Shown: piece by piece, positions 12,303 to 57,783 of the stretch
How the letters are laid out: each line of letters opens with the position of its first letter
Numbering within the stretch: position 1 is the stretch's first letter
NCBI GenBank assembly: GCA_037042185.1
Contig: JAXQJY010000020.1
Coordinates: forward strand, 310,001-374,000
DNA length: 64,000 bases
DNA from: Sordariomycetes sp. S80-01Y
Lineage: Eukaryota > Ascomycota > Sordariomycetes
Reading direction: 5' to 3'
The notes under the pieces: generated by a model
Database searches by the model: none
Seen by the model: the letters and a program-made list of their open reading frames with translations, nothing else
What the model was told of the DNA's origin: nothing
Made by a program: the position numbers and the translations under genes

Positions 12303-14983
12303 CTAGACGGCCACGCCACTGCGGGTTCCAAGCATGAGCCTCTAAGCCGCTTTCATCTCCCTTGTGTTCTTCTCTCCGACCGACGTTCAGCTGTGCTTCT
12401 TGAAAGGGCGAACTTGTAGTCCCTGCTCTGACTCGAGACCCAGCGACAAGTAAGGAGTTGCGGTGTGGTAATCGAAATGAAAGCTCTCGCGCTTTGACTT
12501 CTTGTGACTTCGGATTCGATGGCGAACCAGTCAAGCAGACGAAGATGAGTCTACTCGGTCCATAGCGAATAATGAAGTCATCTTCTGGTCGTGCGTGTTG
12601 ACAGAGCAGGGCACCCGGAGGGTGTTGAATGGAGATGCAGGACTATGAGAAGCTTGGCTGCTGGGTGTGGAGAAGCTTACTCAAGTGGCAGTCCGCCCTT
12701 ATACCGTAGAGGCGACAGCAGACCAAACTTGGTGAAACCGTCGCCTCACATCTTCTGGTGGAAGTCCACTCGATACCACATTACATTTCCCACCTTTTAA
12801 GGCAGAGCACGACCGTCGAGCGAACTACCGCGGCGCAGCGGATCTGGACGCAAAAGTTCTTCCTGGCGTTTCCTTGTCGACGTGGTGTGAAGAACAGATA
12901 CTAAGCCGACTGATGTTGAATCACCAATGCGATTAGAACCGTGCACTTCGATCTGCAGCCGAATATCAGTACAAGTCACTGACGTTTGGTGCGTCCGCTA
13001 ACTTACGCTGGTGGCCAAAAAGGATAAATGGAAAGGTTGGGTATTATCGAGCCAGTAACTACGAAGAGAGAAACTATAGAGGAGGGAAAAAGAAGCTTAG
13101 TTGTTGTTAGATAAGAAAGCTTGTCGTTGGGGAAAGAACTAAGATATTCGATGGCCGGGCCACGATGTTAGACGAGGCCCACCTCGCAACCATCATAATT
13201 ATGCTTTGGTTTATTTTTGGGCCTGCTGATACTGCCGAGGTTGAACCGATTCTCTGCTTAGTAATGGTGAATGCGAAACCCAGGACACCTTCGATGTCTG
13301 TGATGGAACGACGCTTGATGTAACTAAATGCGAGCTGAGATATTGCGAACCCTGGGTAGGGGAAACACACAATGCCCACTGGCTGCGCCATTGTTGATAC
13401 CCCCTATTCGGCGCCTCAGCCCGTCACTCTACGAGGCGCGTTAGCTAAAACAGCGGAAATGAGGGGAGCGTGTGTCCTAACGCAACGTGATCTCGCTCCT
13501 GAACCCCCGTCATTTCTGTCCAACGCATGTTGGGCATGTGTTGCCTTTGACTTTGCCCGTGTCGTGGCAAGTTTCGCAGTCGTACATTTTGGACGGTGCA
13601 AGTAATGTCGCTGGTGGTGAAAGGTTGGAATTGAAATTCTGCAACGAAATGGTGCTGGTACGCCAGGTCTTCATCAATCCATGCCAGATGCTGCTGAAAG
13701 GTCCAGATTAGTCATTCCACACGGCAGATGATTACGCGAAGTCACGTGCCATGTCAAGCCAATTTCACTGGGACGCGCTTTTGACATCGCGTAACTCTCG
13801 TTCACGTGGCGTGGCGACCTCCCAAGCGTCCTGGTGGCACGGCCGAAAATCCGCAGACACGATGATACGATGATACTCAACGACTCCACCTGTTTTCCCA
13901 TGCCTTCCTTCCGTAAATGACGCGTCACGATGGCCGATCGAGCACGGGCAGATATCATTAAGGAAACCCCATTGGGAACAGCCTTGATGCATTTCGCGCT
14001 TCCTTCGATACTGTCTGTATAAGTCTCGGCATCTCCGACCAAGGTAAGCAACGATGCCATTTGAACCGCGTCCATAGACATGTTGTCCTTGGCGATTGTG
14101 GAAAAGCGATTAACAAGGCGAGCTCGCAATCTACTCTACTGAGGGGCACGACTCCTTGCAGAAGGCAGGCTTCTTGCACAGAGATATCTAGATCAACAAT
14201 TTCATGGTCAACTTGGACGATAACAATGCTTGTTGGTCTTTTGATTGACCTTGATCTCGCTAATCATCAAAGAGGAAAGAGATGGCGTCTCGGGGGCAAG
14301 AGGGAAGACAGGCACCAGAGCTTTCATGGAGAGAGGAGCGCTCCTGGGCGAGCAGCATCCTTCATGCATGAGCCTGAATCATTTGTCCGGGTCTTATTCT
14401 GGACATGCGTACATTACAACGGGTCAGATGAATGCAAAGATTTGATAAGTAGAATTTCATCGACCCAGAAGAGCTGGCAACTTCTGAAACGGGGTTGGAA
14501 CGGAGTTGAGCCCGTTGCAGTTGACGAGTCATGCCTGCCCTGTGCTAGAGCTCATGGCTACGAATACCTGTGTTCGCGAGTTCCAGGCCCTGCATTTCAA
14601 TACGTCTTGGTAGATCTTGTAGTCCTGTTTGACGACTCTTCATCAATCCATCAACGACTCCCTCAATCGACAGGAACGCTTAGGGTAGGGGATCTGCGGC
14701 TCCCATGGCATCGCGTACAGTGGCCTCGCCAGGGCCAAATGAGAGGCTGCTCTATCATCTACGGCTAACAACCCGGTACTTTGTGGTTATAAGTAAAAAT
14801 TACTATCTCGATGGACTTGTTGGTCATACGGTCTGGCCGCGTGCATGGTTGTTGCGGTCTCAAAATACCCGGATCTTGGGTGCGGGGTCTGTTGCCATCC
14901 GCGCTTGATGGGTAGGTACTTCAAAGCTCGAAGCCCCATCGGTTCTCCGCCAACTTTGTCCTTCCTCCATTTCTCCCTCCCCA
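12303..14983. other. gene-poor stretch with unresolved minus-strand exons
   Basis: I could not build a secure gene here. Candidate minus-strand coding pieces are the upstream exons of the WGPF gene (12.5-12.8 kb), a 94-aa frame from the ATG at 13391 to 13107 (MAQPVGIVCFPYPGF), and a frame at 13674-14129 with an upstream exon containing SIVIVQVDHEIVDLDIS near 14.2 kb. None has a recognisable domain. Confidence 0.35.
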
Positions 14984-23825: not shown

Positions 23826-25125
23826 ATGCCTGACTGGCAGACCGATACAAGCGAGACCCAGCCAACCAGCCTTATGGATGCGAGCAGAGGGGCTATGACG
23901 CCAACGCCAGCATCAGAGAAGGCAACGAAGAAGATGCGACGCAATAAGCTCGGTTACACTCGGATAGCGGTTGCATGCAGTAAGTATCATGTAAATGTTG
24001 ATTTGCTCGTATACTAATCCTGCGGGTTACTGTCGTAGACGCAGGGTTCGATGTATGCCAGCACACAACGGTACCGAAAATCGATGCGAGAACTGCGTCA
24101 ATCTGAAGATTGAATGCGACAAACACGTGTACAAACAAGGGGGGGTCACGAGTCGGCAGAGATCTCCTCCTGGCTCTCCAGCGCCGATAACACAGAACAC
24201 CTCTCAACCACAGCATCAACTTCCACCCTGGACCACCTATGGCTCAATTCCAGCGACCGTCAGCTATTTCCCCCAAAATTACGTTCAGTATTGCGATAAG
24301 ACAGCAATCGGGAATGGGCTATGGACTGAGCATCAACTGGAATACCCCGGGATTGCAAGTCATCTGTTGCCAGTCGACGATTCTGAGAACACGGATGTGC
24401 AATCCTATTCCGACACCTCGCGAGCAACTACCCAGGAATACCAGCATCCCGGAGGCTTTTGGCCACATCCCCTCACTCAGAATGCGCTTGAGCTTCCTGT
24501 GAATCAGGCAGATCTTGTCAGCGGTTCACTCAATCACATGAGCCCAACTTATCGAGATGGATTATCACTATACGGATTATTCCCGACCACCGTCGACCCT
24601 CAATCCATCGCCTCTGAACCCCCCGATCTATTCGAATCTCTCAGGGGCCCAAAGTCCTTGCCATCATCCACTGAAAGAGCCGTTGTCAATACCAGGCTAG
24701 CCAAGACGGCTCCAGGAGATCTATACACACCAACATGGGTACGAGGTACCGGAGAAGACCGCGAGGCTTGGTGTGGCTTTTGTAAGCCTGGGAAATGGCT
24801 TACGCGCAAAGATTCGGCGTATTGGTACCATCTACTCCGCTCACACGGTGTTAGGCCTTCTACAGGTCAGCGCATGGAGGAGCCTATTACTTTCAGACTC
24901 TCAGCATATAGGGGGATTCAGGCCTGGCTGGGGCGTTGCGAGTGTAACAAGTGGGTCGTGCTATCGAGGGAGCGTGGTTTCGAACCATGGTTTGCTCATG
25001 TCGCAAAGTGCCCTAAGATGCGAGAAATAGAGGAACGCCGCCTGGCTCTCCAGAGTTTGGCCCCGTACAAGGAGCTCACTCCCGGGGGTAACATCCCTGC
25101 CACGCTCTGGATGGGTTCTTTATGA
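23826..25125 (+). CDS. Zn2Cys6 regulator with Rua1-like C-terminal zinc domain (417 aa)
   Basis: Exon 1 is 23826-23979 and exon 2 24026-25125. Joined, they give a perfect Zn2Cys6 cluster: C-SY-C-RRRRVR-C-x10-C-EN-C-VNLKIE-C. The join needs an acceptor ending in GG (TACTAATCCTGCGG) instead of AG. No AG gives the cluster. The middle 200 residues are Pro/Ser/Gln-rich. Residues ~283-385 match the Rua1 C-terminal domain (formerly DUF4451): DLYTPTWVRG, WCGFCKPGKWL, KDSAYWYHLLRSHGV, then C-x-CNKW and WFAHVAKC. Rua1 of Ustilago regulates a biosynthetic cluster, so a DNA-binding regulator is likely. A truncated paralogue is at 27020. Confidence 0.72.
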
Positions 25126-38677: not shown

Positions 38678-40927
38678 ATGGAAGCACTCGAGAAGCACTT
38701 GGGCGATTTATGCGCTGTCTTCGACCACTTACGAGACCAAATTGTGCTGCACTGCGACGCGCGAACTGACTGTCAAAGGAGTTTTAGGTATGGTACTGAA
38801 GAAAGCTTCACGAGGATCATTAATTTGACCCAACAAATGTGGGACGATCTCAAAAACTTCAAGGAATCGGCCTCGAATGATCCCCAACCTCAAGCACCTT
38901 CAGACACTCCCGCAGATACTGTCTCAGCTTCTGAAAGGCAGATGGATGACGCTCCCCCACGTGGTGGAGGTTCAGCAGAGCAACCACCCCCTGAGAGTAC
39001 CTGCTTGGACGCTCAGGCGACAAATGCGGTCTTGCGTGAGCTGGTATCACAACCTTTCATTTCGGAGCAGCGCACCGCGGATCCATCGGGAGCGACGAGC
39101 ATCCGCGAGGCAACTTCGAACGAACAAAGCACCAGTGAACATTGTTCCGATACAGCACGGACATCTTATGGCCACTCCGCAACTCGCAATACGTCTGGTG
39201 ACCTGAATCGTGATGGTCGTGCCCCGAACGATACACAGATGGACAGCTGCGGTGAAGATCGAGGACCATTTGTTTTGCGACCCGGCGACATGGGCGAGAG
39301 GCTTATACCGGCGATCATGGCCCTGGCCGCCAACCCGAATTTCCATGGCACGTTAACAATTGATGAGCCGGAGCGAGACGTCTCCAGCCTGAACGTTGAC
39401 CTTGGAGAGGGAGACTACTATGGGGTTCAGCATGCCGTGACAGACAGATAAAGAGCATCGAATATCTGGCTTACGAAATACGCTTCTTCATTCCGCTGGC
39501 CAAACTTCGACAAAATACCTGACCGACCCAGTGCGGAGGAATCGCGCGACTTTTTGGAGGCTATCGTGGCCAGTCCACCAGAGAAGCCGATCGACTACTA
39601 CGGCGGAAACGCGACATCATTGCTCGACAACTTGCTCTATCCCGGGCAGGTTCTGGCTCAATGTACAGAGCTGCAGGATATGAGGTCGACATACTATCAC
39701 ATTGGCGCAAAAGGATCTGCAACCGGATTTCATTGTGAAGATGCAGAGTTCTGGTCTTGCAATGTCACAGATGCTGGGTACAAGATCTGGCTCATGATCG
39801 AACCACATCACACAGAGCTGTTTGAGCGGTTCATTCGGGCAAATTGAACTTGTGGCGATTGCGATCAATTTGTTCGTCATTTATGCCTCCTCATCGCTCC
39901 ATCGAGACTGCAAGAAGAAGGCATCGATTTTAGTGTTTGCTGCGCGGGACCTAATGAGATGGTTATCACGAGGCCGCGTCAGTATCATGCTGTTGTCAAT
40001 TACACTTCGTGCTTCGCGCGGTCGACCAACTTCGTTCCCGACGAGCAGGCGCTTCTACCGACCAAGGTCGTGGTCTGTGAGCAAGACGGGCTGTACCCCC
40101 TGCATCAAGTTCATCCGATGCAAGTGGTAGTCGCGCCTACGACGCACCCTGCCCCGACATCGGACCGCCAATCAGAAGGACAGAAAAGGAAGCGGAAAGC
40201 ACTGCCTTCAAAGGTAGAGGACGTCGCTCGAGCTAAATCAGCCCGCGCCTTAGAGCGTGGCAGGACTGCTTCGACGGCAGCCCATGAGATAGCGCGACTG
40301 GCGAAGTCCCTCTTGAGGCAAGACCCCGAGCTCAACCTACCCGATGTTCGTCGGCTTTCGAACCCAACAATATTGAAACTTGCAGCTGCTCTTCGCGGCT
40401 CTTCGTGTACGCAACAAGTGAAGAGCCTCTGCCAAGAGCGAGCCAAAGACGAATCTTCTGCGGTGATCCGACGGACCGGCAACGATGATGAGGTCTGGGA
40501 GTCGCAGATCACATACCTGCGCGCTGCTACAGCGGGATCAGCGTTCCAGAAATTCAAGATAAGACTAATTGAGTACGCGATCGCCGAGAAAGTCAGCAAA
40601 GGCAAGAGAAGGTGCCGCCTCAGGGCCGACACCAGTGAGCTCGATGCGTTTGCCGACAAATTTTGGCCCGAGGACACTGGCAAACAGAAGTTACGTTACC
40701 ATCTTTACCGAGGCAGAAAATGGTTACGGCTATGCGGGTCCTTGGTTGGACTCCTTGCCTATATCCCACTTCATCGTGTCGACTCATTGGGTATTGGGCC
40801 AAAAGACTACTGGGCACTTGGAGAGTCGGACATAGAACGTTTTCATGACATGTTTACAGACGATTTCGGCAAGTCCATTTGCTCGACGGGCAAGACAGTG
40901 GTGGAGATGGTACTGTACTGCTCTTAA
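38678..40927 (+). pseudogene. JMJD2-like JmjC-domain gene with two in-frame stops
   Basis: One reading frame runs from the ATG at 38678 to the stop at 40927 (about 750 codons) and is interrupted only by TAA at 39449-39451 and TGA at 39845-39847. The JmjC domain spans both sides of the second stop: TYYHIGAKGSATGFHCED with the iron-binding His and Glu, GYKIWLMIEPHHTELFERF, then QFVRHLCLLIAPSRLQEEGI and MVITRPRQYHAVVNY with the distal His. These align with the JMJD2/KDM4 pattern (WHxED, QFLRH, YHxGFN). No plausible intron removes the stops without removing conserved residues. After the domain comes a disordered basic part and the C-terminal module LYRGRKWLRLCGSLVGLLAY, shared with the Ulp1 gene. 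If read through, it would be a histone or protein demethylase. Confidence 0.72.
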
Positions 40928-42615: not shown

Positions 42616-42940
42616 GTGAAAATTGCAGTAGTAGCTGTAGTGGTAGCTGTAGTGGTGGCTGTAGTGGAGGCTGTAGTGGAGGCTGTAGTGGAGGCTGTAG
42701 TAGTGGCTGTAGTAGTGGCTGTAGTGGTGGCTGTAGTGGTGGATGTAGTGGTGGTTGTAGTGGTGGACGTAGTGAGGTTCAAGGCAACCAGTTCCCGCAT
42801 TTTAGCCATTCTAGAAACCTCACTACGTCCACCACTACAACCACCACTACATCCACCACTACAGCCACTACTACAGCCACTACTACAGCCACTACTACAG
42901 CCGCCACTACAACCACCGTTACAGCCAGGGCCACCCTTTC
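42616..42940. repeat. GTAGTGGTGG(C/A)T tandem repeat folded into a large inverted repeat
   Basis: Tandem 12-bp units of the type GTAGTGGTGGCT run from about 42630 to 42779, and their reverse complement from 42816 to about 42930. The innermost 49 bp (42731-42779 and 42816-42864) are perfectly complementary around a 36-nt loop. Outside them the arms continue with one repeat-unit slip. Confidence 0.92.
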
Positions 42941-45220
42941 TTACTGCCGCAGCAATTTATACATTCATAGCAGTGCAGGTAAAGATTGGCACAGTCGTGG
43001 TAGCTGCATCGAAAAGGTGCTCCACTCCGAAGACTTTGTCGTTCATGCGGAACAAACTTACGGATGTCCTTCACAACGAATCAATACTCAGTTTGAGTAA
43101 TCTTTAAAGCCGACAAGGACATACACTCATCATTTGTCTCTCCCTTCACTTCTATTTCTGTCACATAATTAAAAAGAAATTCGTGTCCCTGATCCCTCAT
43201 TTAAGCTATGATCCTTCTCCAAAGCTTAGTATTAAAGCTTTGGAGTGTCTCTACCTCCAGTAACTTCGGAATTAGGGACCTCTCCATCAAGCACCAGCAT
43301 GAAAATGCATTCTTGTATATAATCCTCTTCTGATTACGTCATTATTCCCGGAGGTATCCAAGAGGGTCGATTGATTCAAAGGCATCATTGAACTTGTGCT
43401 GCTCCTCAGTGTCAAATCGCTAAAAAGACTAGAGCTTAAACCACAAGACGGGAGAAGTTTTTCGCTCATAATGATTACTTTCGTCATCTTCATAGCGTTA
43501 GCCGGCCCCAACAAGGACTTTGCGAGGGGTCAGGCTGTTGTGGCGAGTTCGCCGGCCACGGGGTATGGACAGAGCTTAGGATAGGCCGGAGTGACCGAGC
43601 TTTTTGAGATATCTAAGTTATTTTTTCACTATAAGGGATGAAGATACCCGAGGAAACATCATCTGAGATGATCAGTGCCTCCTCAGATGCATCCGGTATA
43701 AAATCGTCTTTAACATTGGGTTTAACTGGTGTTGCTCCTGGGGAGTCAAGGCGACGTCCAATGCTAGTTCATTGGTGCTGAGTTTCAAAAAGGCGGTAAA
43801 AGAGAGCATAGAGGTCCAGCTGTCTCTCGCTGAAGGCTTGGAGGTCAGTGCCAAGATGACGAAGGAGGAAAGTCTGTCACCGAAGTGGGTGAGGGGAAGT
43901 GAGCTCATGCAATACTCTCTTCCGCAGCTAGGAAGTTGCGAGCAGCATTTATGATGAGTGCGTCTAGGAAATCAAGAAAGTCAATTGTTGAGAGGGGGTA
44001 TTTGATCCACTGAAGGGCCGGTATCGATTCTGGGGAGGCAGAATGAAGTGCAAGAGCCGGCGCTAGCTGATCTTGGTTCGACGTAGAGGATATCTGCCCT
44101 AGAGCATGAAGAAATTATTGAAATAGAGATCAATAGGCACCCAAAAAGGGGCGGATTATTGGGCGTTTTAATGACGCAATTGGCTCTGCTTCAAGCGCAA
44201 AACATTCTCGAAACCAAGCTTCGAGAGGAGTCGCCCAAGACACATACAACCGACATATATATGTGTACACACGCGCTCTTCTTTCTTGTTTTAGATAGTT
44301 AAATTTACATTTAATGTTTGGCATCCTTACTTGGACATCTGCGAAGTTAAAATCAAAATTTGTTTTCGGCTGGAGGCGGTTGGAGGCCGCCCACCACGAC
44401 CGGCGCTAAAGATATTGGCCTAGAGTTTGGAGGTGACCCTCTGAATAATTTATTCGCGTTTCTCGCTAGCAAGACTTCGAGCCACTACTGACGATGTGAA
44501 GGGCGTTGGTACTAAATTAGCGATCTCGTAAATAAATCAAGATGGCAAGAGCGAGATTGCTCATGGCTTATTCCGATGGATTTACACTATCGAGTTGATA
44601 ATTCAAAACGTACATTGTATCTCGCTCTTTCCTCAAGAATTGGCTTTATTGTCTTTCTTTAAACCTGGCCTAGCTATAGCCTTTCTAGAGGCTCTGAACA
44701 CTTTTTGCTGTTGGCTCGCGAACACGAAGGGTATTATCTGAGGTAGTTGGTCGATCGTGGAAAATTCCAGGAAGACCTTGGTGCAATAACGAGCTCATCT
44801 TCGGCGAGAACATACAAAGGCGAGCAAGTCGCGGAAGGTAAATATATGGTACGTCTTAGAACAAATATTGGCAGCTTCTGTGCAAGTGAACAATCACATG
44901 TCTTCCTGATGAGGCTCGTGGTGACTTCCTAGGAAGTCAGAAATGGCCCCCACGCATCCGTGGTAATGCGTGGTGGCGTGTCATTATAGATAATCTCGAG
45001 CACCTGTATTTTATGTAGGTAGCCAACAATTGAATATTCGGAGTTTTGTTGGACTCGGCTCTCTATGACCAGCATGCTCTGATGAGGACGACGTACGCTC
45101 CACCTCCAGATCCCACGATGGCTTAACGACGAATGACCATTCTGCAAATGCGCCGTGCAACAAGTCATTTCTTGGAAGTTTACTGTTTTTATGTTCTTGT
45201 ATTTATTTACTCTTTACTTC
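42941..45220. other. A/T-richer gene desert with relics
   Basis: About 2.3 kb without a secure gene. It holds an 11-bp hairpin (43217-43227 with 43235-43245), an 18-bp palindrome TGACTTCCTAGGAAGTCA at 44922-44939, and a WGPF-family fragment at 44929-45168 on the minus strand. Base composition is visibly richer in A/T than most of the window. Confidence 0.5.
44929..45168 (-). pseudogene. remnant of the 'WGPF' family
   Basis: Reads ...TTDAWGPFLTS then TAG then EV, parallel to GTWGPFVTSWEV in the 11833-12302 gene. The nucleotide match spans about 32 bp with a few differences, and the Trp codon TGG has become TAG. The upstream 60 codons are open but not clearly homologous. Confidence 0.35.
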
Positions 45221-47008
45221 TTAAAGAATCTTGCTAGCTGGTGGTCTGTATTCAGTTTCTTTGAATTCAACTAATTGCCGTCGATTCGCCACCGCCGCTG
45301 TGCGCATAGAGTCCGTGAATCTAGGGTCGCCGGAGGCTTTGCCGTCAGTGTGAGATTTGCATCGGGATGAAAAACGTACCGACTACTATCATACGGCCTG
45401 AAGTCTTGCCTCTCTCCTCTCTCACCTTTCTTTGCAAGACACCTACAGCTTGGCTAGTGCTCACGTGTCTACACGCCCAAAACTGTTGCTGAGGATCCTC
45501 TGACTCCGCGAACGGAGGAAATCCTAAGTTTTCCTCAGGATACAAGCACCATACGACAAGTAGTCTCTACTTCGAAGTAAGCAGAGGAAAGGGTACTTAT
45601 GTGCCTACAACGTACATTGAGAGGGTCTAGACTTTTGAGTCGTGCGAGTTCGCTCGCCAACGGCTCCATCTGAGCGTTGGTCTCTGGTAACCAAAGGACA
45701 ACGACCTTGCGCGTGGCGTCCAGAAGTCGCCTATCTTCGAGCTCGGATAACTTCTCCCTTAAGTTCTTTCTCTCCTGGGAGTTCGTTGGAGTTGAGAGGC
45801 TCGCCAACTGCCTGTATTCAGTCCACTGGTCGGTTAATTCAGCCTGGATAGAAGCATCGCGGTACTTTCGCTCGGCTAGATCCAAAGCCAAGGGCAACAC
45901 ACCCACAATACCCATCCCCTTGGCAGCGAAAAATACCGTCTCATATGTTCTCAAACGAAGATCTTGTCCATATGGCCCGTCAAAAGTCAATTTATCATCC
46001 TTCGCAAGCCGATGTATATTCCTTTTCCAGCTCCCCTCGGTTGAGAGGACAAACTTGATGGTCTTGCTGACACCAGTATCGTTATTGTCTCTTAAGGAGT
46101 TGCTGAATGCGACAATGGAGTAGCGGTGGAGAGATATAGAGTTTTGAAACGACACTCGGAAGTACCCTCCAGGCATCAAGCGTGCAGGAGGTATCAGGTT
46201 TGCTGTGATCGTAATAATGCGTGATTGGGAATGTCTTTGAATGTCGGAAACGACCGCAGAATATTCTGGGAAAGCTCTCTTCCATGCTTTCTGGGCTAAA
46301 CCTATGGTCAGGAACACGCCTGATACACCTACCACAACCCGTGCTACGAGGTTCTCAACGCAAAGAACGTGCCAGAACAAAACCGCTAGACTGGATGTGA
46401 CGACGATATTATGCGTCAAAGTAAACCAAGCTTGTTGTATTTCCCGGAGCCATACAAGCGAGAGAAACATGCACAGAAGCCAACCGCCGAAGACCTGTTT
46501 CTGTTAGCGAGATAGGTACCTCGGAAAGCTGGACACTCACTCCGTAGCCGGTATATACAAGGGTACCTGGACGTGGTTTCTTCCATAGTACTATAGCAGC
46601 GTGGCATAGAGCTTCCAAGATGGCTATTCGGCCAATCCAATGATGGAAGAGATGGTATAATGTTCTGTGGATGTTCAACACCTTAACTGGGCGCATTCCC
46701 ATACCCACACAGAGGGGTATAACATTTACCGCGGCAATTAGAGCGCATCGTTTTTCAATCTTCCTCCAATCGAAAGTATTGAAAGGTATAAATATAAGAA
46801 CAACATTTGTCGAGAAATAAACCAATAAAAGTATTGCGTCCAGCCTAGTGACGCTATCCCATCTACGACGACGGATAAGTAACGGTATTCGAACGTTTCT
46901 CGAGAAAGCAGAACTCAGATCAGGAACGTGGTGAGATATGAAGGAGATAACGACCAGAGTTGTCGCGACGCCGACAAGTAAAATGAGATACCAGATGGGA
47001 CTGTCCAT
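45221..47008 (-). CDS. ferric reductase-like transmembrane flavocytochrome (551 aa)
   Basis: Four exons: 46541-47008, 45616-46500, 45380-45566 and 45221-45336, with introns of 40-49 nt. Several N-terminal membrane helices carry the two haem pairs H122/H136 (HHWIGRIAILEALCH) and H186/H200, each with 13 residues between. The FAD motif is LHRYSI (about 281) instead of the usual HPFT. NAD(P)H-binding motifs are DGPYGQ (about 330) and FFAAKGMGIVGVLPLAL. The C-terminus has RMIVV-ASGDPRF and ends RQLVEFKETEY, the position of the family's CGPP motif, here degenerate. Such enzymes reduce ferric iron or copper outside the cell before uptake. The altered FAD and CGPP motifs may lower activity. Ferric reductases of this type are recurrent Starship cargo. 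Confidence 0.85.
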
Positions 47009-47195
47009 GTTTGTGGTTTTTCGCTGTCATAATGTCTGAAAGTGGACTTGTCCTTGCCTTTTGGCGAATATCCCACAGGCCAAGCTAGTCGTCATATCCA
47101 AGTTTCTTTATTTAAAATCTAAGTTCCAATTTCGCAGGTAATCTTTCTCAGGCCCGACGCTGAAAGTCTGTCCTTTAACCAAAGCTGGTGATCTC

Positions 47196-47333
47196 CAGGG
47201 CCGGCGCTTATGGGTCTCCACCCGGAGCCGGCGCTTACGGTCCCCGTCGGAGCCGGCGCTTATGTCCCCACCCAGAGTCGGCGCTTGTGTCCCCACCCGG
47301 AGTCGGCGCTTATAAACCTACCCCGGAGCCGGA
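47196..47333. repeat. five tandem units of ~26 bp with a CCGGCGCTTA core
   Basis: Units resemble GGAGCCGGCGCTTATGTCCC plus CACCC, with point differences between copies. They lie between the ferric reductase and MADS-like gene starts, which are divergent. Confidence 0.85.
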
Positions 47334-47528
47334 CACGATAATCTTGGAGGCAGCTTATGGAAGACAGAATTAGAACAATAGGCCACTGTCCAGGCGCGCG
47401 CCTACAAAGAGTAAAAATAGATTATATTGTTGTATAAAATCTGTCGACCAGCCGGATCAGTCACGGTAATCACTTAACAACACACCTGTGTCCTCAAGCT
47501 CCCTGATCTAAGCTATCGGACGCTCGAC

Positions 47529-48032
47529 ATGCCCAAGTACAGAGGCCAGCAGAATCGTAACCCGGAAGCGGGAATGAGAAACCGCCAGATGGGCCTTGGC
47601 AAGAAAGCCAACACCTACAAACAATTTTACGGAGGGGACGTCCTTCTCCTCATGCGAAGACGAGATGGACAAATCTTTGGATACCAATCTAGAGATGGCC
47701 TGATTCGCGACATGCCAACCTGGAGAGTCCTAGAGTCCGAGCTCTATACTCCAGATGATTTCGAAAAGGTCAGCGAGAGGAGACGCCTCCGTTCTTCTCG
47801 CTCGCCGGCGTCAGCGTCGTCTGCATTCTCGACGGGACAATCGCCCCAAACCCCATCGTCCGACCTATCTGATTCAACGTGGAGGAACACTCCTATCCAG
47901 CAGGAAGCTGGACTCGGCCTGGAAGCTACATCTGATTTTATAACTACAAGGGCGAAAGTGCTACAGCCTTCTCCGTTATCAATGACGCAGAAAAGGAAGA
48001 TTGAGTCACTCCTAGAAACTTGTTTCACTTGA
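47529..48032 (+). CDS. MADS/SRF-like small protein (167 aa)
   Basis: Single exon, ATG at 47529. Residues ~15-60 read RNRQMGLGKKANTYKQFYGG, then DVLLLMRRRDGQIFGYQS. This follows the MADS-box pattern (R-K-GL-KKA-EL, then V-L-I-R-DG-I-Y-S). A basic Ser-rich stretch and a helical end follow (QKRKIESLLETCF). Fungal genomes contain a family of short MADS-like proteins of unknown role. DNA binding is an inference. A relative lies at the right edge (63621-64000). Confidence 0.65.
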   Translation: MPKYRGQQNRNPEAGMRNRQMGLGKKANTYKQFYGGDVLLLMRRRDGQIFGYQSRDGLIRDMPTWRVLESELYTPDDFEKVSERRRLRSSRSPASASSAFSTGQSPQTPSSDLSDSTWRNTPIQQEAGLGLEATSDFITTRAKVLQPSPLSMTQKRKIESLLETCFT

Positions 48033-48433
48033 GAGTGCCTGGAAGGTCTTACGCGGGCAGTCTGCGGTGGGGGAGCTCATCATTTGTCTTTGAATCTTGG
48101 GTTTCATTCATGTAATTCATAAGTTTTCAAATATATGTGTTATTTTGTGCATACACTTAACAAGTAGTGCTTTCACATAGAAACAGTTTGTGGCGCGAAG
48201 GTCAACTCATCAGTGAGGTAACCTTATTTTGAACACTAGTAAGTCTCACAGACTTAAAAGTTAAAAATTTAATCCCAATGGAAGCTCTGAATTTCCAATT
48301 TTAACCCCATAGCATAGTTCTATAAAGATTGGCATCGGACGAGAGGGTAAATTCTATGACATGATACTACTTTGACTCTCTAAAAATCTACTGACATTAA
48401 GATTAAGATACGGTAATATCCTACAGATAAGTA
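48033..48433. other. A/T-rich intergenic stretch
   Basis: No gene seen. Strongly A/T-rich, with runs such as AAATATATGTGTTATTTTGT. Confidence 0.5.
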
Positions 48434-49864
48434 ATGGATCCAAAATTGATCGAGATCTCCGGGGCCTTGGAACGTTGGCCGAAATCGAGCGGTTCTACCA
48501 CTAAGGCGCTCAAGGCAATTGGTTTAAAGCAAGGCAAGGATGGGGAAGGAATTGTGCTCGTTGCGACTCCGGAGGCAGTGGAAAGACAGCATAAGCAGGT
48601 CCAAAGGGCTATGCACGACAAAATACCAATCGTGAGCGAACTATTTCTTGACGAGTGTAAAAAGGCCGGTGGTTGGTTGGAGCCGAGCTCCTTATTCCAC
48701 CTTCACCTTCACACCTATGAGGATAGCGGCATAGGTCTCGAGGAGCCGGCCACAAACACGCCGGCAACGCAGGTTAGTGGACACAAAAGATTATTCTCAG
48801 AAACTGAGCCTGCCCATACTCACTATGCCAATAAGCCTAACCATCAGCCACCTCCTCAAACTCCTCCTCAGGCTCCTGCTCAGACTCCTACTCAGACTCC
48901 TGCTCAACCAACTCCTGAGGCTCCTCCTCAGACTTCTGCTCAACCAACTCCTGAGGCCCCTGCTCAACCAACTCCTCAGGCTCCTCCTCAGACTCCTCCT
49001 CAGACTCCTCCTCAGACTCCTCCCCAACCAACTCCTGAATCTCCTGCTCAACCAACTCCTCAGGCTCCTCCTCAGACTCCTCCTCAACCAACTCCCGAGG
49101 CTCCTGCTCAACCAACTCCTGAGGCTCCTGCTCAACCAACTCCTGAGGCTCCTGCTCAACCAACTCCTGAGGTTCCTGCTCAACCGGCTCCTCAGGCTCC
49201 TCCTCAGACTCCTCCTCAACCAACTCCTGAGGCTCCTGCTCAACCAACTCCTCAGGCTCCTCCTCAGACTCCTCCTCAGCCTTCTACTCAGCCTACTCCT
49301 CAGCCAGGCGCTTCCCAGTCTCCCAGTCCCGGGTCTTCCGAAGATCAACCTGTCTGTACTACGTTTCCATATGTTGGCTCCGGGTCACGGTCCACTATGG
49401 TGATTGAAGATAAAGAAATCAGGTTTGTGACCGCTTTCAGGGGGTTGATATTCTGCACAAAGCCAGGCAGTAATGCGGCGTTTAATCAGGGCTACATGTT
49501 TAAAGGAGCAGATTATCGAGTACAGAAATCGGCATTTTTAGGCCCGGAGTATGGCGGTTCTATCCAGTCCAACTGTCCCGCCAGCTCCATAAAAAGCCAG
49601 AGTTTACGTGACTTCGTACTTCACTCAGTAGCCGTGATCCCTCATGGCAAGGCCAAGTTCGTGGTAGCTATGGGACGTGATGAATCTGAGAAGGTCTGGA
49701 GGCCGTATAGCCGGACTGCGTTGAAACAAAAGTTTGGGCCAAAAGTTGACGCATTAATCAACATGACTCGACATCTGGCAGGACAGGAAATGATTAATTT
49801 TGACAAGGAAGCAATCGACCCTAAGAGAATGTGTACGCTGAGAGGGTATAATTGGTCTACGTAG
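48434..49864 (+). CDS. BRCT-like protein with a Pro-Gln-Thr repeat (476 aa)
   Basis: Single exon, ATG at 48434. Residues 1-95 look like a BRCT domain of the PARP/RFC class: LIEISGALERWPKSSGSTTK, GIVLVATPEAVERQ, then KIPIVSELFLDECKKAGGWL. Residues ~140-290 are tandem PPQTPPQ, PTPEAPAQ and PTPQAPPQ units. A C-terminal globular domain (residues ~310-476) has VIEDKEIRFVTAFRGLIF and a WGR-like part with ESEKVWRPYSRTALKQKFG. The order BRCT, linker, WGR-like domain recalls PARP proteins without a catalytic domain. Binding to damaged DNA or PARP partners is an inference. Confidence 0.6.
   Translation: MDPKLIEISGALERWPKSSGSTTKALKAIGLKQGKDGEGIVLVATPEAVERQHKQVQRAMHDKIPIVSELFLDECKKAGGWLEPSSLFHLHLHTYEDSGIGLEEPATNTPATQVSGHKRLFSETEPAHTHYANKPNHQPPPQTPPQAPAQTPTQTPAQPTPEAPPQTSAQPTPEAPAQPTPQAPPQTPPQTPPQTPPQPTPESPAQPTPQAPPQTPPQPTPEAPAQPTPEAPAQPTPEAPAQPTPEVPAQPAPQAPPQTPPQPTPEAPAQPTPQAPPQTPPQPSTQPTPQPGASQSPSPGSSEDQPVCTTFPYVGSGSRSTMVIEDKEIRFVTAFRGLIFCTKPGSNAAFNQGYMFKGADYRVQKSAFLGPEYGGSIQSNCPASSIKSQSLRDFVLHSVAVIPHGKAKFVVAMGRDESEKVWRPYSRTALKQKFGPKVDALINMTRHLAGQEMINFDKEAIDPKRMCTLRGYNWST
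48850..49300. repeat. coding minisatellite CCTCCTCAGACT / CCAACTCCTGAGGCT
   Basis: Tandem units of 12-15 bp encode PPQT and PTPEAPAQ blocks inside the BRCT-like gene. The repeats keep all six frames open over about 450 bp. Confidence 0.9.
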
Positions 49865-50216
49865 AATAAAATAATAATATCATTTTCCTTGACAAACTCA
49901 GCATTCTAAGTGAAGCATTTGTAACTCACTAAGCAAATTGCCAGTTGTACACACCACTAAGATATGGACGCACGCCAAACAAGCAAGAAGGGTTGCAGTG
50001 ATAGGTGGCATGCTAAAAGGCCTTTCCCGGCAGCTTGTAAAGTAACCAACCTGATGCATTTTCCGTTCACTACAGGTCCCACGAGTGGCCATGAATTGAC
50101 TGCTGAGATCGCTATAATTTGTATTTAAGATTTGATATTTGATATCATCAGATACATAAGCACCGAAGATCAATCACTCAACCGCTTTTGCTACAAAAAT
50201 CATTTTACACCTGTTA

Positions 50217-51002
50217 ATGATGCTTTTCTGGATAGTAGCCCTCTGTACCGTCGAGGTCTTAGCTCACTCTTGGGTCGAAAGAGTCATGCGAATAGAACCA
50301 AACGGAACAATGACTGGTAGACCAGGCTTCGCTCGCGGCACCGTTTCACGGCTCAAAAATGGTTTTACAGATTACGATATGCAGCATCAGATTCGAGGGG
50401 ATTATAATGATAGAATGTGCAAGGCTACACAATCTTTCAACAACTACAGCGACGAGTTCCCTGCCCTTCAGGCACAACCAGGGGACTTCATTGCCGTCCA
50501 ATACCAAGAAAATGGCCACGTAACTCTCCCCGAAATCACCCCCCAAAAGCCTAATAGTGGGACTGTGTATGTTTATGGATCCTCTTTGGCACTGGAAGAC
50601 CCCTCTTTGCTGTCCATACATGGTGTTTGGAAGGAGACAGACAGCAGCATGGGTAAATTACTAGCAAAACATCAATTTGATGACGGTCAATGTTATCAAA
50701 TTAATGGCGGAAACGTTTCAAAAGATCGACAATCCTCGTTTCCAAAGAGCCCTAAGCCTCCCCAGGGAGCAGATCTCTGGTGCCAATGTGATATTCGACT
50801 GCCTAGTGATATCGAAGGGATATATACTCTCTACTGGGTCTGGGACTGGCCCTCTCTCATTGCCGGAAATATCGAGACAGAAATCTATACTACTTGTCTA
50901 GACATCCTCGTATGGCCTGGGGTGCAGACGAAGGAGTTGAATTATATACGAGGTCAAAATGTTGATGAATCAGGTCTAGAGTACCAGATGGGAAGTTTCT
51001 AA
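50217..51002 (+). CDS. secreted DUF7492 protein, LPMO-like N-terminal His
   Basis: Single exon, 261 aa. A signal peptide (MMLFWIVALCTVEVLA) would be cleaved before HSWVERVMRIEPNGTMTG, leaving His as residue 1. Further conserved parts are DYDMQHQIRGD, PGDFIAVQYQENGHVTLP, VYVYGSS, LLSIHGVW, DGQCYQINGG, ADLWCQCDI, YTLYWVWDWPS and EIYTTCLDI. These match the fungal DUF7492 family. The N-terminal His, the ENGH and the WVWDWP block resemble copper-dependent lytic polysaccharide monooxygenases, so an oxidative activity on a polymer is plausible but not proven for the family. Confidence 0.85.
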   Translation: MMLFWIVALCTVEVLAHSWVERVMRIEPNGTMTGRPGFARGTVSRLKNGFTDYDMQHQIRGDYNDRMCKATQSFNNYSDEFPALQAQPGDFIAVQYQENGHVTLPEITPQKPNSGTVYVYGSSLALEDPSLLSIHGVWKETDSSMGKLLAKHQFDDGQCYQINGGNVSKDRQSSFPKSPKPPQGADLWCQCDIRLPSDIEGIYTLYWVWDWPSLIAGNIETEIYTTCLDILVWPGVQTKELNYIRGQNVDESGLEYQMGSF

Positions 51003-51027
51003 ATTCACCAGTCGTTGATTATCCAAT

Positions 51028-54000
51028 TTATCCCTCTTCCTCGATGATGTCGTCAATCGCGCTCCCCCCAACTTCAATGAGTTCATTTGGCTCAGGTATT
51101 CGCAGGTCCATCTCTGTATCGGAGTATCCTCTTCGGCGAATCTCCACCTCTCTCGTATCTTCCGTTCCCCTTTTCCCACCGACGCCTCTTGTCTGACTTG
51201 GGCCACTTGTTACACTCTCCACTGCAGTCACACTTCCCACTCCCCCCTCCAGCCTTCGAGCTTTGACTTTGAGTGTAGCGGGACTGTCTGTACCCTTCTG
51301 CACCGGTAGCCTGACTGCGTTCTTAGATACCTGTAGCGGTTCGCGAAGCCTGGATGAATAGTCTGTCGACTGATGGTGCGCCGCAACGAAGGGTATGTCG
51401 ACCCTAGGAGCTCCACTTTGTTCGGATCCCGCTCCGATGTTACTATTCCCATCGTTGACAGTGGAATTCCCAGCAACTTGGGCGGGTGCAGGACTCGAAG
51501 CGTGGTCTGTCACTGGTTTATGGACAAGCTCTGCTCCAATGATAGACCCGGCGTCGCCAACGATCACATCGAAAATCACTCGAACTCTTTGTTTTTCCAA
51601 TATTTCACGGCTCAGAAGGAACTTTTCCTTCAATATAGACCAGACGTTGTCCATAGGGGACAATTGCTTCGAGATACCGCCAACCCTGACCTTTGTCAAG
51701 CTTATACTGGCAAAGGTTTCTCGTTGGCGATTCAAATACTCTGACACAACTTCTAGGAGCGTTTCAGTGCTAAGACGCACGTTTTGAACAACGGTGCGGC
51801 TTTGCCGGTTGGACCGGTGGACGTTGAAGCTCACCACGGCGTCAGGTGGGGCTTCGGGACTCGCCGGGAGGCTGCTTTCGACGGCAACGTTCTGCGGCGG
51901 TTGTCCGGCAGATATGGAGAAGATAGGTTGGGGGAGTTGCGAGACATCCGTTATGCCAGCAGGGCGTATCCTCTGCAATTCAGCCGTTTGGTGATCAAGT
52001 GGTTGCAGACGATTGCTCGTCGTCGGACCACTCTCACCCACAGCAGAGCTCCCTCCTGCAGCCCCCTCATCAATTTGGTCTGTTTGATTCTGCGGATCTG
52101 GGGGAAGAACTTCGGCTTGTGTACCAGGATGATGGGACGTTACCGCCGGGTTGCTCTCCATCGGTAACCTTTGAGTTTCCGGAATATCTGGAGCAAATAC
52201 ACGAGACGTTCGTCCACCCATATACCTTCTCGCGAGTTTGGCACCTTTCCTTTGTGACTTGAACTGAACCTCCTTGATCTGTGTGTCTGACCCCTTCTTA
52301 GTGTTGTAAACACCAAGCCGGCTCCCTTCCGCTCGGGTTGCTCTAGGTCTCCGCACTGCATCGACACCAACGTACTCCATTAATGCATCAGCAGTGGCAC
52401 CATCGCCGCCATCTGTGGCAGTGGTGGCTCCGTCATCGGAGCAAATTGTCATCATATTGTCGGCAGTCATACTATCTTCCAGAGCTTGATCAGGCCACCT
52501 CAGCTCAATGGCGGTGGTTTGCGTCGGGTCCATTTCTATACGCGGGAGGCATCCGAAGAAAGCAGAAACAAAATCTCGCTGTATACAAGCGTGGTCTGGG
52601 TTGAGGGTCTCTGAAGTATCGAGATTTGCGAGAAAGGGTAGATAGAAGTTGCTTTTCAGCGCCCAAAATTGTTGGATGGAGGGCATCCCACCACGCCATT
52701 CTTTGTAAAGATTGGAGGATTTGGGACTTTGGATCCACCCACGATGTTGGAAACGCTTGACACCCTCGGCTATTTTCTCGTTGCGAAAGCCACGTATTTC
52801 GGCGCTCCGGCACAGCCAGCTCAGGCTGTCTTTATGGGGCGCAGCAATCATCTCTTCTCCCTTAACATCTTGTAAGGGACTTACGCTACTCATGTACGGG
52901 AAGTCCCTTAGAGCAGTAAGTAAAAGATCTGCAAATGCGGCCCAGGAATCGCTCTGGCCGATGTAAGGGCTGAATTGGCCAGCTTTCGTCTCCAGCAGGC
53001 TGCATCCATCCCAATCTCTGGTCAGATTTTTGTAAAGACACGACGGCTCTTTGAGCAGTTTTGGGGTACTTCGGTGTTCTTTTTTGGGTTTGACCTCGAT
53101 GTGTTTTTCCAAGATCTTTGCACCCACGGTAATATATCGCATATTTTCGTCGAATGTGAGGATGCTAGGGATCACGACATCCAACCTTAGGATGTTCTCA
53201 AGAAGTCTCGCCCTGCATCCTGAAGACGTTATATTACCAAAAAGCCATCTCATACTCTTTGTAATGAAAGTTCTGTCACCATCGCTCCACGCTGGGGCAC
53301 GATATTGGAGGCACTGGACAGTCCACGGATCAAGCAAACTTGGGCTTGACTCGACGCCTGCGAATATCTTCGTCCACGTTTCGTGAATGTGCTTCCAATA
53401 ATGGACAATCATAAGGTCGCAATGTGCGGCCAAATGCTTTGCCCAATTACCGAGTCGAAGATCATCCCAAAGGCCGGAGAATTGGATGACGGCGTCCATT
53501 GCGTCGCAGATACTCGGACGGCCAAGTATCATGCCGAGGTGATTGGGCTTGCGCCCTTTCAGTTTCCACATCCATTCTTGAGCAAGATTGTAGTTACCCT
53601 CTTTCATATGTTTGCGCACATTGATGTATATCAGGCCGTCGCTACAACCTGCACGACAAGGTTAGTGATGCTTCACTTGCCTAGCTTTGATCTTACCTGG
53701 TGGAATGTAGTACACTTGTACACGACACTCGAATTTGGGTCCAAGACGTTGTATGGCCTCGTCAATGCACTTTTGCCCGAGAAGACAGGCAATTCGGACC
53801 TTTACTCTTGGAGACGGAGTCTCTGGCCGCAATGTCTCCACCAACCTGAGGGGACTGATTTCTTCCTCAATGACCTCCAGTTGAACATTGTTTACAACAG
53901 CACATATCGGATGGACTGCACTCGCCAAGATCTCCTGGAATTGCTCTGTTGTTGCAGACTGACACAACGCCTGAGGAATCTCCACGATACTTTGGGCGGC

Positions 54001-54060
54001 CAACGAGTCCAGTGGCACCCTTACGACTCCGCGAATGTGGTCTGTAAAATTGTTCGCCAT
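51028..54060 (-). CDS. DUF3723 protein (994 aa)
   Basis: Exons 53697-54060 and 51028-53648, with a 48-nt intron GTAAGA...CACTAACCTTGTCGTGCAG. The N-terminal half carries DUF3723 hallmarks: an opening with RVPLDSL, CLLGQKCIDEAIQRLGP, then GNYNLAQEWMWKLKGRKPNH, DAVIQFSGLWDDLRLGNW and VHYWKHIHETWTKI. From about residue 530 on it is disordered, with a globular island (RSNRQSRTVVQNVRLSTETL ... SILKEKFLLSREILEKQ) of unknown type. DUF3723 proteins have no known biochemistry but are among the genes most often associated with Starship transposons. It is divergent to the RING-patatin gene, with 177 bp between the starts. Confidence 0.85.
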
Positions 54061-54237
54061 GGCTGCATAGTGGCCAGACTACTAAAGACCATGCATCGGG
54101 GGCCTATGTACTGGTAATATTCTTATTCGGAAGCTTCATTTGAATACTTAAATTAAGGTCGTTCACTATAACTGTAGCGTTGCTCTAGGCGGCTAGGCTC
54201 TTGGCGCTCTCCTCCCATCCCAACATGCTTACTCATC

Positions 54238-56640
54238 ATGTCGGCTTCCACTCTCCTCACACTGCGTGCAGGTGCACCAGGTCTACCGGGCCCTTACCTG
54301 AAAGAACATCTAGAAGCATACGCGCTTTTCGATCAGATTGGAGAGAAGAGGCCCCGGATTCTTATGCTCATCGGCACCATGTGGGATGTTCGTCGAGACA
54401 AAGGGCATGAGAATATGGTGGCTATTCGACAACTCAACTTGGAGACACTCTGCTTCGAATGTACGCTGCATCACACCACCTTCATTCCGCGAATAAAGGG
54501 TGGCTACGAGCTTGGTAGTTCGTTGCATCACCTCATGGCAAGTAAGGATGTCACACGAATTTCGTGGGCCATATATTGCATTGTTTTGTCCCGGTTCAGC
54601 GACGCAACTGTAATATCTGTCTCCGACTTCGGAGGTTTCCCCACAGTCATCGACTTTCTGTGCTTCTACATGGAGTGTAATCGCCTGTCTGAGCGAAAGA
54701 TCGTATACATAGCTCATGAAACCCCGTTCGATCAAGACCGGTTTCAATTCGACCTTGCCGTCAGCATGCTTGCGAACTTACGAGCTCGCAATCCGGTGGA
54801 AACCCCTACCTTTGCAGAAGCACGGAAAATCTTGCGTGCAAATTTGGAAATTCGGCAATTGTCCATTAAGACGCCTTCATTCATAAAACGAGTTACTTCA
54901 GAGACCCGGGCTATCAACGAAGACAGGATACGGGAACGGCTCGTTTTCTCGGCACTTCAGACCAAGCAGCTACTCCAAGAAACGATTTCGAGGTTTGCGA
55001 TGCAACCTACGAAGGCACCAGACTTTCTGCACTTATCAAGGGCGAGATTTCCTGGGATGGATGAGTCTTCTGAGCAGCTTTTCCTCTTTATGGACAATTT
55101 TAAAGGCTCCACCGAAGAAGCGACATCAATCCTGGCCTCTGCCCTTGTTGTAGATGCGTATCCGCCTGGGATGCATGGTACGTCGGCCTTTACAAAGCGC
55201 AACATTAGCTAACTTTGATAGCATTTCCGCCCGCTGACGTATTTCGAAATCTGTATGAGGATCAAATAAGAAAACTCTCCGATGCAACTAGGCTACCAAT
55301 GTTGACAAAGGACGTGGAAAGAGACTTTGTGTCACTAGCTCTTGACCTTCTTGCGACGAGGGCAGATATAAAGAAGGCACACTGCGTACGGCTTCAGGGG
55401 AGTCGATCTATGAGAAGTTTGAATTCCAATGGGTGCTCATTTTGTCTCCTGAAGTGGTCCAGCCATGTCCTAGATTGCAAGCACCAGCTGTGTTTTAGGT
55501 GCACTGACGGCCATGAGCCGCTACGGTCTTGCCCTGTGTGTCAACAGCCTAACTCAAGGGTCCCTCAGCGACGGCTTCCGACCGCGGGCATCAGGGAGCT
55601 TCAGATTCATGGTCACAATGCCGAAGACATCCTCAACTTCCTGAAGAATTTACAACGAAGCACAGGGCTCAATTCATCGTCATTAAGATGCCACTTTGAC
55701 AGCATCTCTGGCTCCGGGATTGGTAAGTCTCCATCTAGGCTATGCGCTCTTCGCTGAAGTTATGAAGGCTTCTTCTTTGTTCTCGCCATTTTTGTGGAGG
55801 GATGGTCTATTTCAGACTGCAAATATCACCTCCCCAATATTCGGAAACAACATCTGTCAAATCGGATCATATGCCGTGGTGGGAAGCACCGATTTGGCCT
55901 GAATTACAGTGCCGTAAGCTTTGGGAAGGGACTTAAGTGGTCATTCGAGGAAATTCAGTCGAAAAACGCTAAAATTATTGGGGAAAGTAGCGAACATGCC
56001 ACCATCACAATACAGTGAGTTCTCGCACAGGAAGACCAAGGCGTGATCCTGATAGATCTTCAGAAACCAGCTTCGATCGGGCTCACTGCCCGATATACAA
56101 ATACGATACCCTGGCAATGCTTTTGACGCCATTCAGTTCGACCGCATTGCGCATAAACTGTTTGCCTACCTTTTCTATATTGAACTCAAGTCCCTACCAA
56201 CGTTCTATGAGTCCCCCGAGATATGTTCGTTCAGGTTGCTGTGCCGACTCCCCCCGGAGCATGCTTTGTTGGACTTGCTGTTTAAATTTCGCCGTGAAAA
56301 TACTCGGTGGTACTATCGTGGCAGTAATGGCTCATATCAATCCTCTGTATTCACCACGCGAGAAGTCATGATGGCTTGTCAAGGAGGCAAGCCCTTTCAG
56401 AAGGACTTTTACGTAGAAATGCGATCGCCAGATGATTCCGTGGACGTCCAAATTGGAACCAAGTGGGGTCAATTTCATGTTAGCAAATGTCCCTATGCGT
56501 TAAAAGAGGTTATCAAGGACCAAGGGATTTGCTGCTTTTTCGGCGACGCATCACGTTCGACGGCGGCTTTGAAGGCTCGGCGATCTCCGGGGGCCACGTT
56601 GGTGGCCATGGAAATGCAGAAGGTGATAGACACGTTTTAG
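54238..56640 (+). CDS. RING-patatin-like protein, catalytic residues lost (754 aa)
   Basis: Exons 54238-55177, 55222-55722, 55768-56014 and 56064-56640, with introns of 44, 45 and 49 nt (last acceptor GATCTTCAG). The N-terminal ~330 residues are uncharacterised. A C3HC4-like RING follows: CSFC, then H-x-LDC-KH-x-LC-FRC, then SCPVC. Then comes a patatin fold: the glycine loop reads RRLPTAGIRELQIHG instead of DGGGxRG, and the nucleophile elbow HFDSISGSGIGG has Gly where GxSxG needs Ser. The helix after it (VLAIFVEGWSISDC) is conserved. The stretch with the catalytic Asp is missing. The tail (FDAIQFDRIAHKLFAYLFYI...LCRLPPEHALLDLL) matches fungal RING-patatin proteins. It should be inactive as a lipase and may act as a sensor or scaffold. 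Confidence 0.75.
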
Positions 56641-56902
56641 TTACAATTTTGATAGATGATCGGCGGCTGATGGTTTATTGCATGTTCCTGACTGATAGTC
56701 AGCCATACTTCCATCTGTCTCGTAACCATGATGAGTAACACTCTTGTGAGTCGTCCGAAGTTGTGCGTATGAGATACCCTACGTCTATTGAGCCCTAGTG
56801 TTGATTGAACTCCGGACATTGCAAGAGGAACCTAGGTTGGGAACGATTATCATACGAGCTGCGGAATTTCGAGGACGTAGAAAGCATTTCCCGAGACTTT
56901 AT

Positions 56903-57399
56903 TTACTTATTCTTCAGTCCTACTGCTCTCTGTATCTCTTCCTCTGTCAGGGTTGGAACGATTTGTCTGGGAACCTTGACATACGGCTTTGAGACCCGGC
57001 CAACCCCAGCTTCGCTGCGTCTCAGGTCGCCGATCCTGTTCCTCGACCTGTATGCACAAGGTTGAGTGGTCTTCTGTTTGCGATAAGCTGGAAACAGGTC
57101 TCCTTAGCGGGTCACACTTTGTCAGGCAAGATCCACGCTTACCTTGCAGTGACAGCATCGCCAAAGATTCTGATATCGACTTGGAGGCAACAGGCTGATC
57201 GCGATCTCTCCGTGAGCTTGGCTTCTTATCAGAAGCCAAGGGAATAGGTGTAGGAGGCCTTATCATCCCTGTGAGGGGCTCACTTGAAGGTTGCCAGCTG
57301 CTGTTCGTTAGCGAGGACGTGCGCACGAGGTAGGACAGCTCACGTGATTTTGGCACAGTCTTCATGAATGACCGGCATCGAGTCGATTCTCTCCATCAT
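56903..57399 (-). CDS. small orphan protein (131 aa)
   Basis: Exons 57344-57399, 57143-57297 and 56903-57087, with introns of 46 and 55 nt (GTGAGC...CGCTAACGAACAGCAG and GTAAGC...GTTTCCAG). It starts MMERIDSMPVIHEDCAKIT right after a stop, continues WQPSSEPLTGMIRPPTP, and ends VPRQIVPTLTEEEIQRAVGL. Mostly disordered and basic in the middle. No family recognised. The clean splice sites and frame agreement support it. Confidence 0.55.
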
Positions 57400-57783
57400 A
57401 TTTTACGATCTTCTTTGTTTCTTCTGCACCAATATGGAAGTATGATGGGGACTCGAAGCCTTCTAAGTGCGCAATGCAACGGTGGGAGGGCCTTTCAATG
57501 AATGGAGCGGGGCGTTGCTCGAATCTGACTCTTAATTTTAGAGTCGAAGACACACCTCGGAGAACTTCATCCTCCCCTAAAAGTGGAAATGAAATTGCCA
57601 AGGGCGCTTAGGCACATCATGGTGTGAAAGGAGGTGAATCAGCCGGTCCGGGTTCCGGCGAGTAGACCCACCCACCCCGAATCCCTCGGCGGCAAGTCGG
57701 CGCTTGGCAGCCCGGAATCGGTGAGGTGGGGCCGCTGTGATGGCACTGTGGAGGTTATATACGGCGGAGGACCGAAGCTGCAT
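57362..57783 (-). CDS. doubtful small protein overlapping the previous gene
   Basis: Exons 57672-57783 and 57362-57576 would give 108 aa (MQLRSSAVYNLHSAITAAPP ... EDEVLRGVSSTLKLRVRF). The 95-nt intron is longer than others here. The last 38 bp overlap the 56903-57399 gene in another frame on the same strand, so one of the two 3'/5' ends may be wrong. Confidence 0.25.

Follow-up and report, generated by a model that had tools for sequence, protein, structure and literature searches.

A 64,000-nucleotide stretch of the genome of Sordariomycetes sp. S80-01Y, here called the window, raises the question of whether a small group of clustered genes forms the cargo of a Starship, a giant transposon of fungi. 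Captain genes are described as the first 5' genes of Starships, and NLR, PLP, FRE and DUF3723 as their accessory families (PMC12506042, PMC12134995). The original prediction recognized a ferric reductase, a DUF3723 protein and a RING-patatin protein within 11.4 kb of the window, and proposed Starship cargo whose captain would lie outside, or else a relic. The window corresponds to positions 310001-374000 of contig JAXQJY010000020.1 (C3) in a 30,874,049-base (30.9-Mb) genome of 16 contigs, and window base n is C3:310000+n. The answer reached here is a larger one, as the whole 64-kb window is very probably the interior of an approximately 101-kb Starship-type element that splits one 5S ribosomal RNA (rRNA) gene.

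The foremost evidence is the captain. The statement that no DUF3435 gene lies within the 64 kb was correct, and a captain was located at C3:380025-382495 on the minus strand, 6.0 kb beyond the right edge of the window and reading toward it. It is a C2H2-fingered tyrosine recombinase of the DUF3435 type, consists of four exons encoding about 770 amino acids (PF11917, E 1.1e-23, 84.3 bits with a cut-off of 25.8), and is present in a single copy in the genome. Its ATG is found at C3:382495, 456 bp from the element end at C3:382951, beyond which the 3' part of a 5S gene starts. As the frame is open across the four exons and tyrosine-recombinase residues are present (in 11 aligned sequences, Y414, R417 and Y448 are invariant and R270 nearly so), reading the captain as a relic is not favoured. 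The 17 captain relatives found belong to hypocrealean fungi and Colletotrichum. A sequence search of PDB with the captain profile returned nothing at 0.01, and Foldseek was likewise without a match at E 0.001. Separately, a second, broken DUF3435 piece was noticed at C1:2675-2797, near the end of a contig whose first kilobase is A/T-rich; tblastn gave no match of the captain family in C1:1-10000.

The extent of the element was read from the split 5S gene. At the right end, the 3' part of a 5S rRNA gene begins abruptly with CCCGTC at C3:382952, with the upstream DNA of the captain to its left. A DNA search with C3:378000-384000 yielded 33 matches, namely self and 32 others, 24 of which start exactly at C3:382952. 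The intact 5S consensus, based on eight copies retrieved, is ACATACGACCATACC(C/T)AGTGGAAAATACGGGATCCCGTCCGCTCTCCC, followed by a T run. Because an element splitting a 5S gene should leave the 5' half to the left, this half was sought leftward on the same strand, and C3:210001-474000 contains 5S 5' halves broken after CCCGTC at 281495, 278625 and 272464. The half at C3:281495-281533 was preferred as the partner since it is the nearest and has no mismatches to the common 5S over a 34-base pattern, compared with two in each of the other halves. With this partner, the left junction is C3:281533/281534, the right junction is C3:382951/382952, and the element spans C3:281534-382951 (101418 bp). The two halves, 101.4 kb apart, together rebuild the dispersed 5S gene and have CCCGTC in common, which forms a direct repeat at C3:281528-281533 and C3:382952-382957 within the split gene. 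Extension of the contig, as the original prediction had advised, recovered both a DUF3435 gene and short direct repeats. A further 5S-like sequence at C3:401336, a decayed copy, lies outside the element and continues past the CCCGTC break point. Rfam at the gathering score gave no match over the window and loci L003, L004 and L013, which is taken to follow from the presence of only part of a 5S gene there; the 5S identification rests on the intact copies. The captain and its position, the direct repeats in a defined target, the size (15-700 kb is reported for Starships; PMC12134995), the DUF3723 gene and the NLR gene all match published features, so the element is one of a known kind. With considerable confidence, it can be described as a 101.4-kb Starship-type transposon with the captain as first gene at one end, reading inward.

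Several observations weigh against this interpretation. The base following the CCCGTC core differs, being C on the left (CCCGTCC) and T on the right (CCCGTCT). A comparison of the two ends for terminal inverted repeats gave only a short, non-significant similarity around TTCTTG (shuffle p 0.37); such repeats were reported in 18 of 20 Aspergillus fumigatus Starships, and are hence frequent, not universal (PMC12153272). The captain differs from its relatives by 15 residues inserted in its N-terminal part and by a last zinc finger that is reduced. The closest relative of the DUF3723 protein is at 84%, so the gene is present in some near relative. The ferric reductase of the window reaches 20.1 bits with PF01794 (cut-off 28), even with exons joined, and patatin had no profile match up to E 10 in separate unspliced pieces, a limit that, here and below, is itself constrained because few matches above about 0.1 pass the HMMER filters. 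Moreover, the data represent a single genome of one strain, and the element is read from sequence alone. Finally, a short distance further left there are two additional lone 5S 5' halves (C3:272464 and 278625) that carry a 3' end of this type; the right end could in truth belong with the 272.5- or 278.6-kb half, or its partner could be lost. The captain end would then be real and the locus a mosaic of old 5S-targeting insertions, the captain's own 3' end being lost or located at 272.5 or 278.6 kb (an element of 104-110 kb). This is considered improbable. In its favour, three lone 5' halves, each followed by a related 3' end, succeed one another on the left, and lone 3' ends are frequent in the genome. 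However, pattern searches of the interval from 281.5 to 382.95 kb revealed no additional 5S 5' half, and the mismatch counts point to the 281.5-kb half. Likewise, there is no 5S 3' half above background, as the best score over the 101 kb is 26 and shuffles of seven shorter bodies, which do not include the 101-kb body, reach 23-29.

The ends of the element recur in the genome. A search with the 3'-end sequence C3:281490-281720 gave 36 places, 25 of which match in the 5S half alone (24 are intact 5S genes and one is a 5S gene interrupted at another point). The remaining 11, self included, carry the 3' end of the element: three on C3, five on C10 (246.6, 251.7, 404.3, 1260.4 and 233.8 kb), and one each on C2, C16 and C11. 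A 5S 5' half stands to the left of the 3' end in 10 of the 11; it is decayed, core included, at C10:1260.4, and the C11 copy retains only about 10 bases of it. It may be argued that the captain is a solo DUF3435 gene beside ordinary accessory genes and that the split 5S gene is a coincidence, given that DUF3435 genes are reportedly more often solo than captains (PMC12134995) and that DUF3723 and ferric reductase genes are present elsewhere in the genome. This is scarcely credible against nine sites besides the left junction at which a related 3' end follows a 5S 5' half, with the CCCGT core retained at the junction in eight, and against a locus where both halves have CCCGTC and the captain lies close to the break in captain-like orientation.

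A pattern census allowing up to three mismatches counted 34 5S 5' halves and 31 3' halves, corresponding to 24 intact genes, 10 lone 5' halves and seven lone 3' halves. Two of the seven lone 3' halves start at CCCGTC, namely the captain end and C2:220265. The latter junction and the 3' end at C2:217007 enclose a 3.2-kb captain-less insert, for which tblastn hits were only at E 0.016 and worse. As a side observation, this insert (C2:217040-220264) contains a frame of 490 amino acids without a Pfam match and a frame that appears chitin-binding-like by eye. Overall, 3'-end junctions and captain-side type junctions number 11 versus 2. This ratio, together with the single captain, would suit 3' ends that derive from another class of 5S-targeting mobile element (e.g. 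a retroelement), the captain being a mere neighbour. Such an origin is very unlikely: 5S is interrupted at one and the same core by both the captain end and the 3' end, and in the C2 insert, too, this 3' end is matched by a break at that core. Furthermore, none of the few short-insert frames scanned with Pfam, which was not a full search, is a reverse transcriptase.

For nine of the 11 3' ends, no captain-side partner was found, and loss of the captain half is the plain reading of these unpaired ends. Six of the nine are followed by another same-strand 5S 5' half 2.9-6.4 kb downstream, in runs from 272.5 to 278.6 and 278.6 to 281.5 kb on C3, from 251.7 to 246.7, 246.7 to 242.4 and 404.4 to 398.0 kb on C10, and from 1642.7 to 1638.7 kb on C11. 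The downstream 5S is complete in three runs (C10:242.4 kb, C10:398.0 kb and, decayed, C11:1638.7 kb). No such downstream half accompanies C10:233.8, C10:1260.4 and C16:587.8. The five intervals other than that on C11 (the C10 404.4-398.0 interval being searched over 398.6-404.0 kb) contain no 5S 3' half above the shuffled level. Some bacterial islands rebuild the transfer RNA gene that they enter. Captain-less satellites of this Starship might similarly have a 5S 5' half serving as the second of their own ends, which is regarded as doubtful; a satellite would break its target 5S on one side while restoring a full 5S gene at the opposite side. This would explain both the junction excess and the downstream 5S halves at six of nine unpaired ends. 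The model is not established because 5S halves and intact 5S genes cluster on one strand anyway: neighbouring pairs of 5S 5' halves are 13 same and 2 opposite (p 0.007), and a same-strand neighbour within 10 kb downstream exists for 7 of 24 intact 5S genes versus 5 of 9 pattern-found 3'-end sites. A flank test produced one weak pair (67 bases, 73%) and overlaps from neighbouring 5S genes, and hence no flank support for the model. In the literature searched, no description was found of captain-less Starship satellites rebuilding 5S. The excess of lone 3' ends is thus an unexplained feature of an otherwise known kind of element.

Two side observations concern these 5S sites. An NLR gene is located between two lone 3' ends (C10:242300-251900), with NACHT recognized by Pfam and phosphorylase-like and ankyrin parts by eye. 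Additionally, 5S genes seem to be interrupted by another type of insertion as well, at a point around CTGAGGGG that differs from the CCCGTC core; five lone 5S 3' parts start there, and one lone 5' part (L045) ends there. The break sites are L040-L043, L045 and C3:409904, with coordinates C10:232153, C16:6118, C9:581166, C15:337307 and C2:33558. By eye, at least three of those 3' parts (L041, L042 and L043) have upstream sequence in common.

Returning to the window, the 11.4-kb block proposed as Starship cargo (window 45221-56640) is an interior part of the 101.4-kb element, and its genes fared differently. The DUF3723 gene is well supported (window 51028-54078, minus strand, probably two exons; PF12520, E 7.2e-54 on 51028-53661). 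An in-frame TAA was considered as a sign of decay and rejected, as the stop falls inside a canonical-looking intron of 48 nucleotides read by eye (about 53649-53696; GTAAGA...CTAAC...CAG); the gene therefore looks intact. The DUF7492 gene at 50160-51002 (plus strand) was likewise borne out, being a single open frame with PF24320 at E 6.2e-80. The ferric reductase survives only as a divergent ferric-reductase-like gene at 45535-47026 (minus strand), with a probable intron at about 46495-46540 delimited by splice candidates, and it is absent from the 19 ferric-reductase matches genome-wide. For the RING-patatin protein, open frames at 54178-56640 (plus strand) contain a RING segment (PF13920, 21 bits with a cut-off of 27, at 55209-55757). 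Its patatin part is a likeness by eye only, and a six-frame genome search for patatin gave seven matches, none on C3. The MADS-like and BRCT-repeat proteins found no backing, with no Pfam match up to E 10. Two open frames of 184 and 477 amino acids at 47478-49864 (plus strand) have no Pfam match; the 477-residue frame has a strong coding score and contains a tandem repeat tract with a 12-nucleotide unit at window 48760-49335.

Other cargo within the window includes a JmjC-domain frame at 39848-40927 (PF02373, 7.2e-11), a Rua1_C regulator frame at 23995-25125 (PF14616, 1.4e-15), and a fungal protein kinase fragment at 13962-14768 (PF17667, 8e-6), all on the plus strand; gene counts from the gene finder are rough. 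An inverted repeat at 42669-42926 (111-nucleotide arms, 95% complementary, with 12-nucleotide low-complexity units) and an A/T-richer stretch at window 42-46 kb (guanine-plus-cytosine content 0.45-0.47) are real features. As borders they were rejected, both being interior to the element. Also observed was a pair of diverged copies in inverted orientation, about 0.85 kb long and 68-74% identical, which flank the 11.4-kb block at window 43083-43927 and C3:377490-378416 (67490-68416 on the window scale).

Left of the window, the element contains an NLR gene with NB-ARC plus TPR (C3:292311-296321; NB-ARC 26.3 bits, cut-off 23.5), a HeLo gene (C3:296305-297510), an OTT_1508 deaminase and a methyltransferase; a GT8 fragment lies inside it to the right. 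Three DNA searches for further copies are indicative only, as each had one candidate unscored and its own locus unlisted. The block (window 44500-57500) has no second copy save one 147-base match. Pieces of the element recur on C15 at 86-92% identity. Those at C15:319625-325607, which covers the NLR/HeLo pair, C15:263653-264944 and C15:90833-91899 correspond to the left part of the element at 87-92%; one more piece is at 71%. A weaker recurrence on C9 lies 26-34 kb from the DUF3723 locus there. DUF3723 loci occur on C3, C9 and C15 (the last at 439.7-441.2 kb), and a profile search found no DUF3435 at the C9 or C15 loci. These recurrences are consistent with cargo common to several elements or relics. 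Family names alone are weak evidence for a Starship because of the 19 ferric-reductase matches and three DUF3723 loci in the genome.

The captain relatives and the 30 DUF3723 relatives have three contigs in common, all from Fusarium and recognized by species and equal size in bp: a 5,296,576 bp contig of F. oxysporum NRRL 32931 (FOYG_03470 and FOYG_03487), a 99,025 bp contig of F. austroafricanum and a 194,069 bp contig of F. beomiforme. The captain and DUF3723 pair therefore also occurs together elsewhere. Outside the element, an AAA gene (C3:427257-429443) has relatives at 97% and 86%, the next being at 69% in the hypocrealean genus Ilyonectria, and thereby suggests that the host is a hypocrealean fungus.

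Known Starships offer useful comparisons. Aspergillus fumigatus belongs to a different fungal class from the host of this genome. Its Osiris navis (Enterprise family), with mean lengths of 38-138 kb, inserts in and fragments 5S ribosomal DNA (rDNA), with a hotspot enriched in 5S copies (PMC12153272). The likeness to Osiris is the 5S target; the relatives of the present captain are those named above. As judged by eye, the CCCGTC core presumably lies just downstream of the 5S position equivalent to that of Voyager. Voyager has the target AGAATACAGGGC and carries DUF3435 and DUF3723, as the element here does, and its description reports that Starships insert into 5S rDNA (PMC10128009). Sanctuary of Bipolaris sorokiniana combines a 6-bp direct repeat with accessory families (PMC12506042), and here too the repeat is 6 bp, with the captain 456 bp from the end. 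Sanctuary differs in its direct repeat (ATWHCT), in its cargo, and in being known from several haplotypes and strains, compared with one genome here.

Captains are described as moving elements by cut-and-paste (PMC12134995). Thus, the captain of this element may have moved it in this manner, recombining into the CCCGTC core of one 5S gene, and the DUF3723, NLR, HeLo and other interior genes would be cargo travelling with it. The Starship life cycle is reported to include derelict elements and cargo swapping (PMC11623301). Reading the split 5S gene shows how one genome can suffice to progress from a guess based on gene families to a defined element. It represents a new Starship with a C2H2-fingered captain and a target core, in what looks like a hypocrealean fungus, and the 11 copies of its 3' end constitute an internal record of past insertions for testing models of Starship decay, cargo exchange and trans-mobilised satellites.

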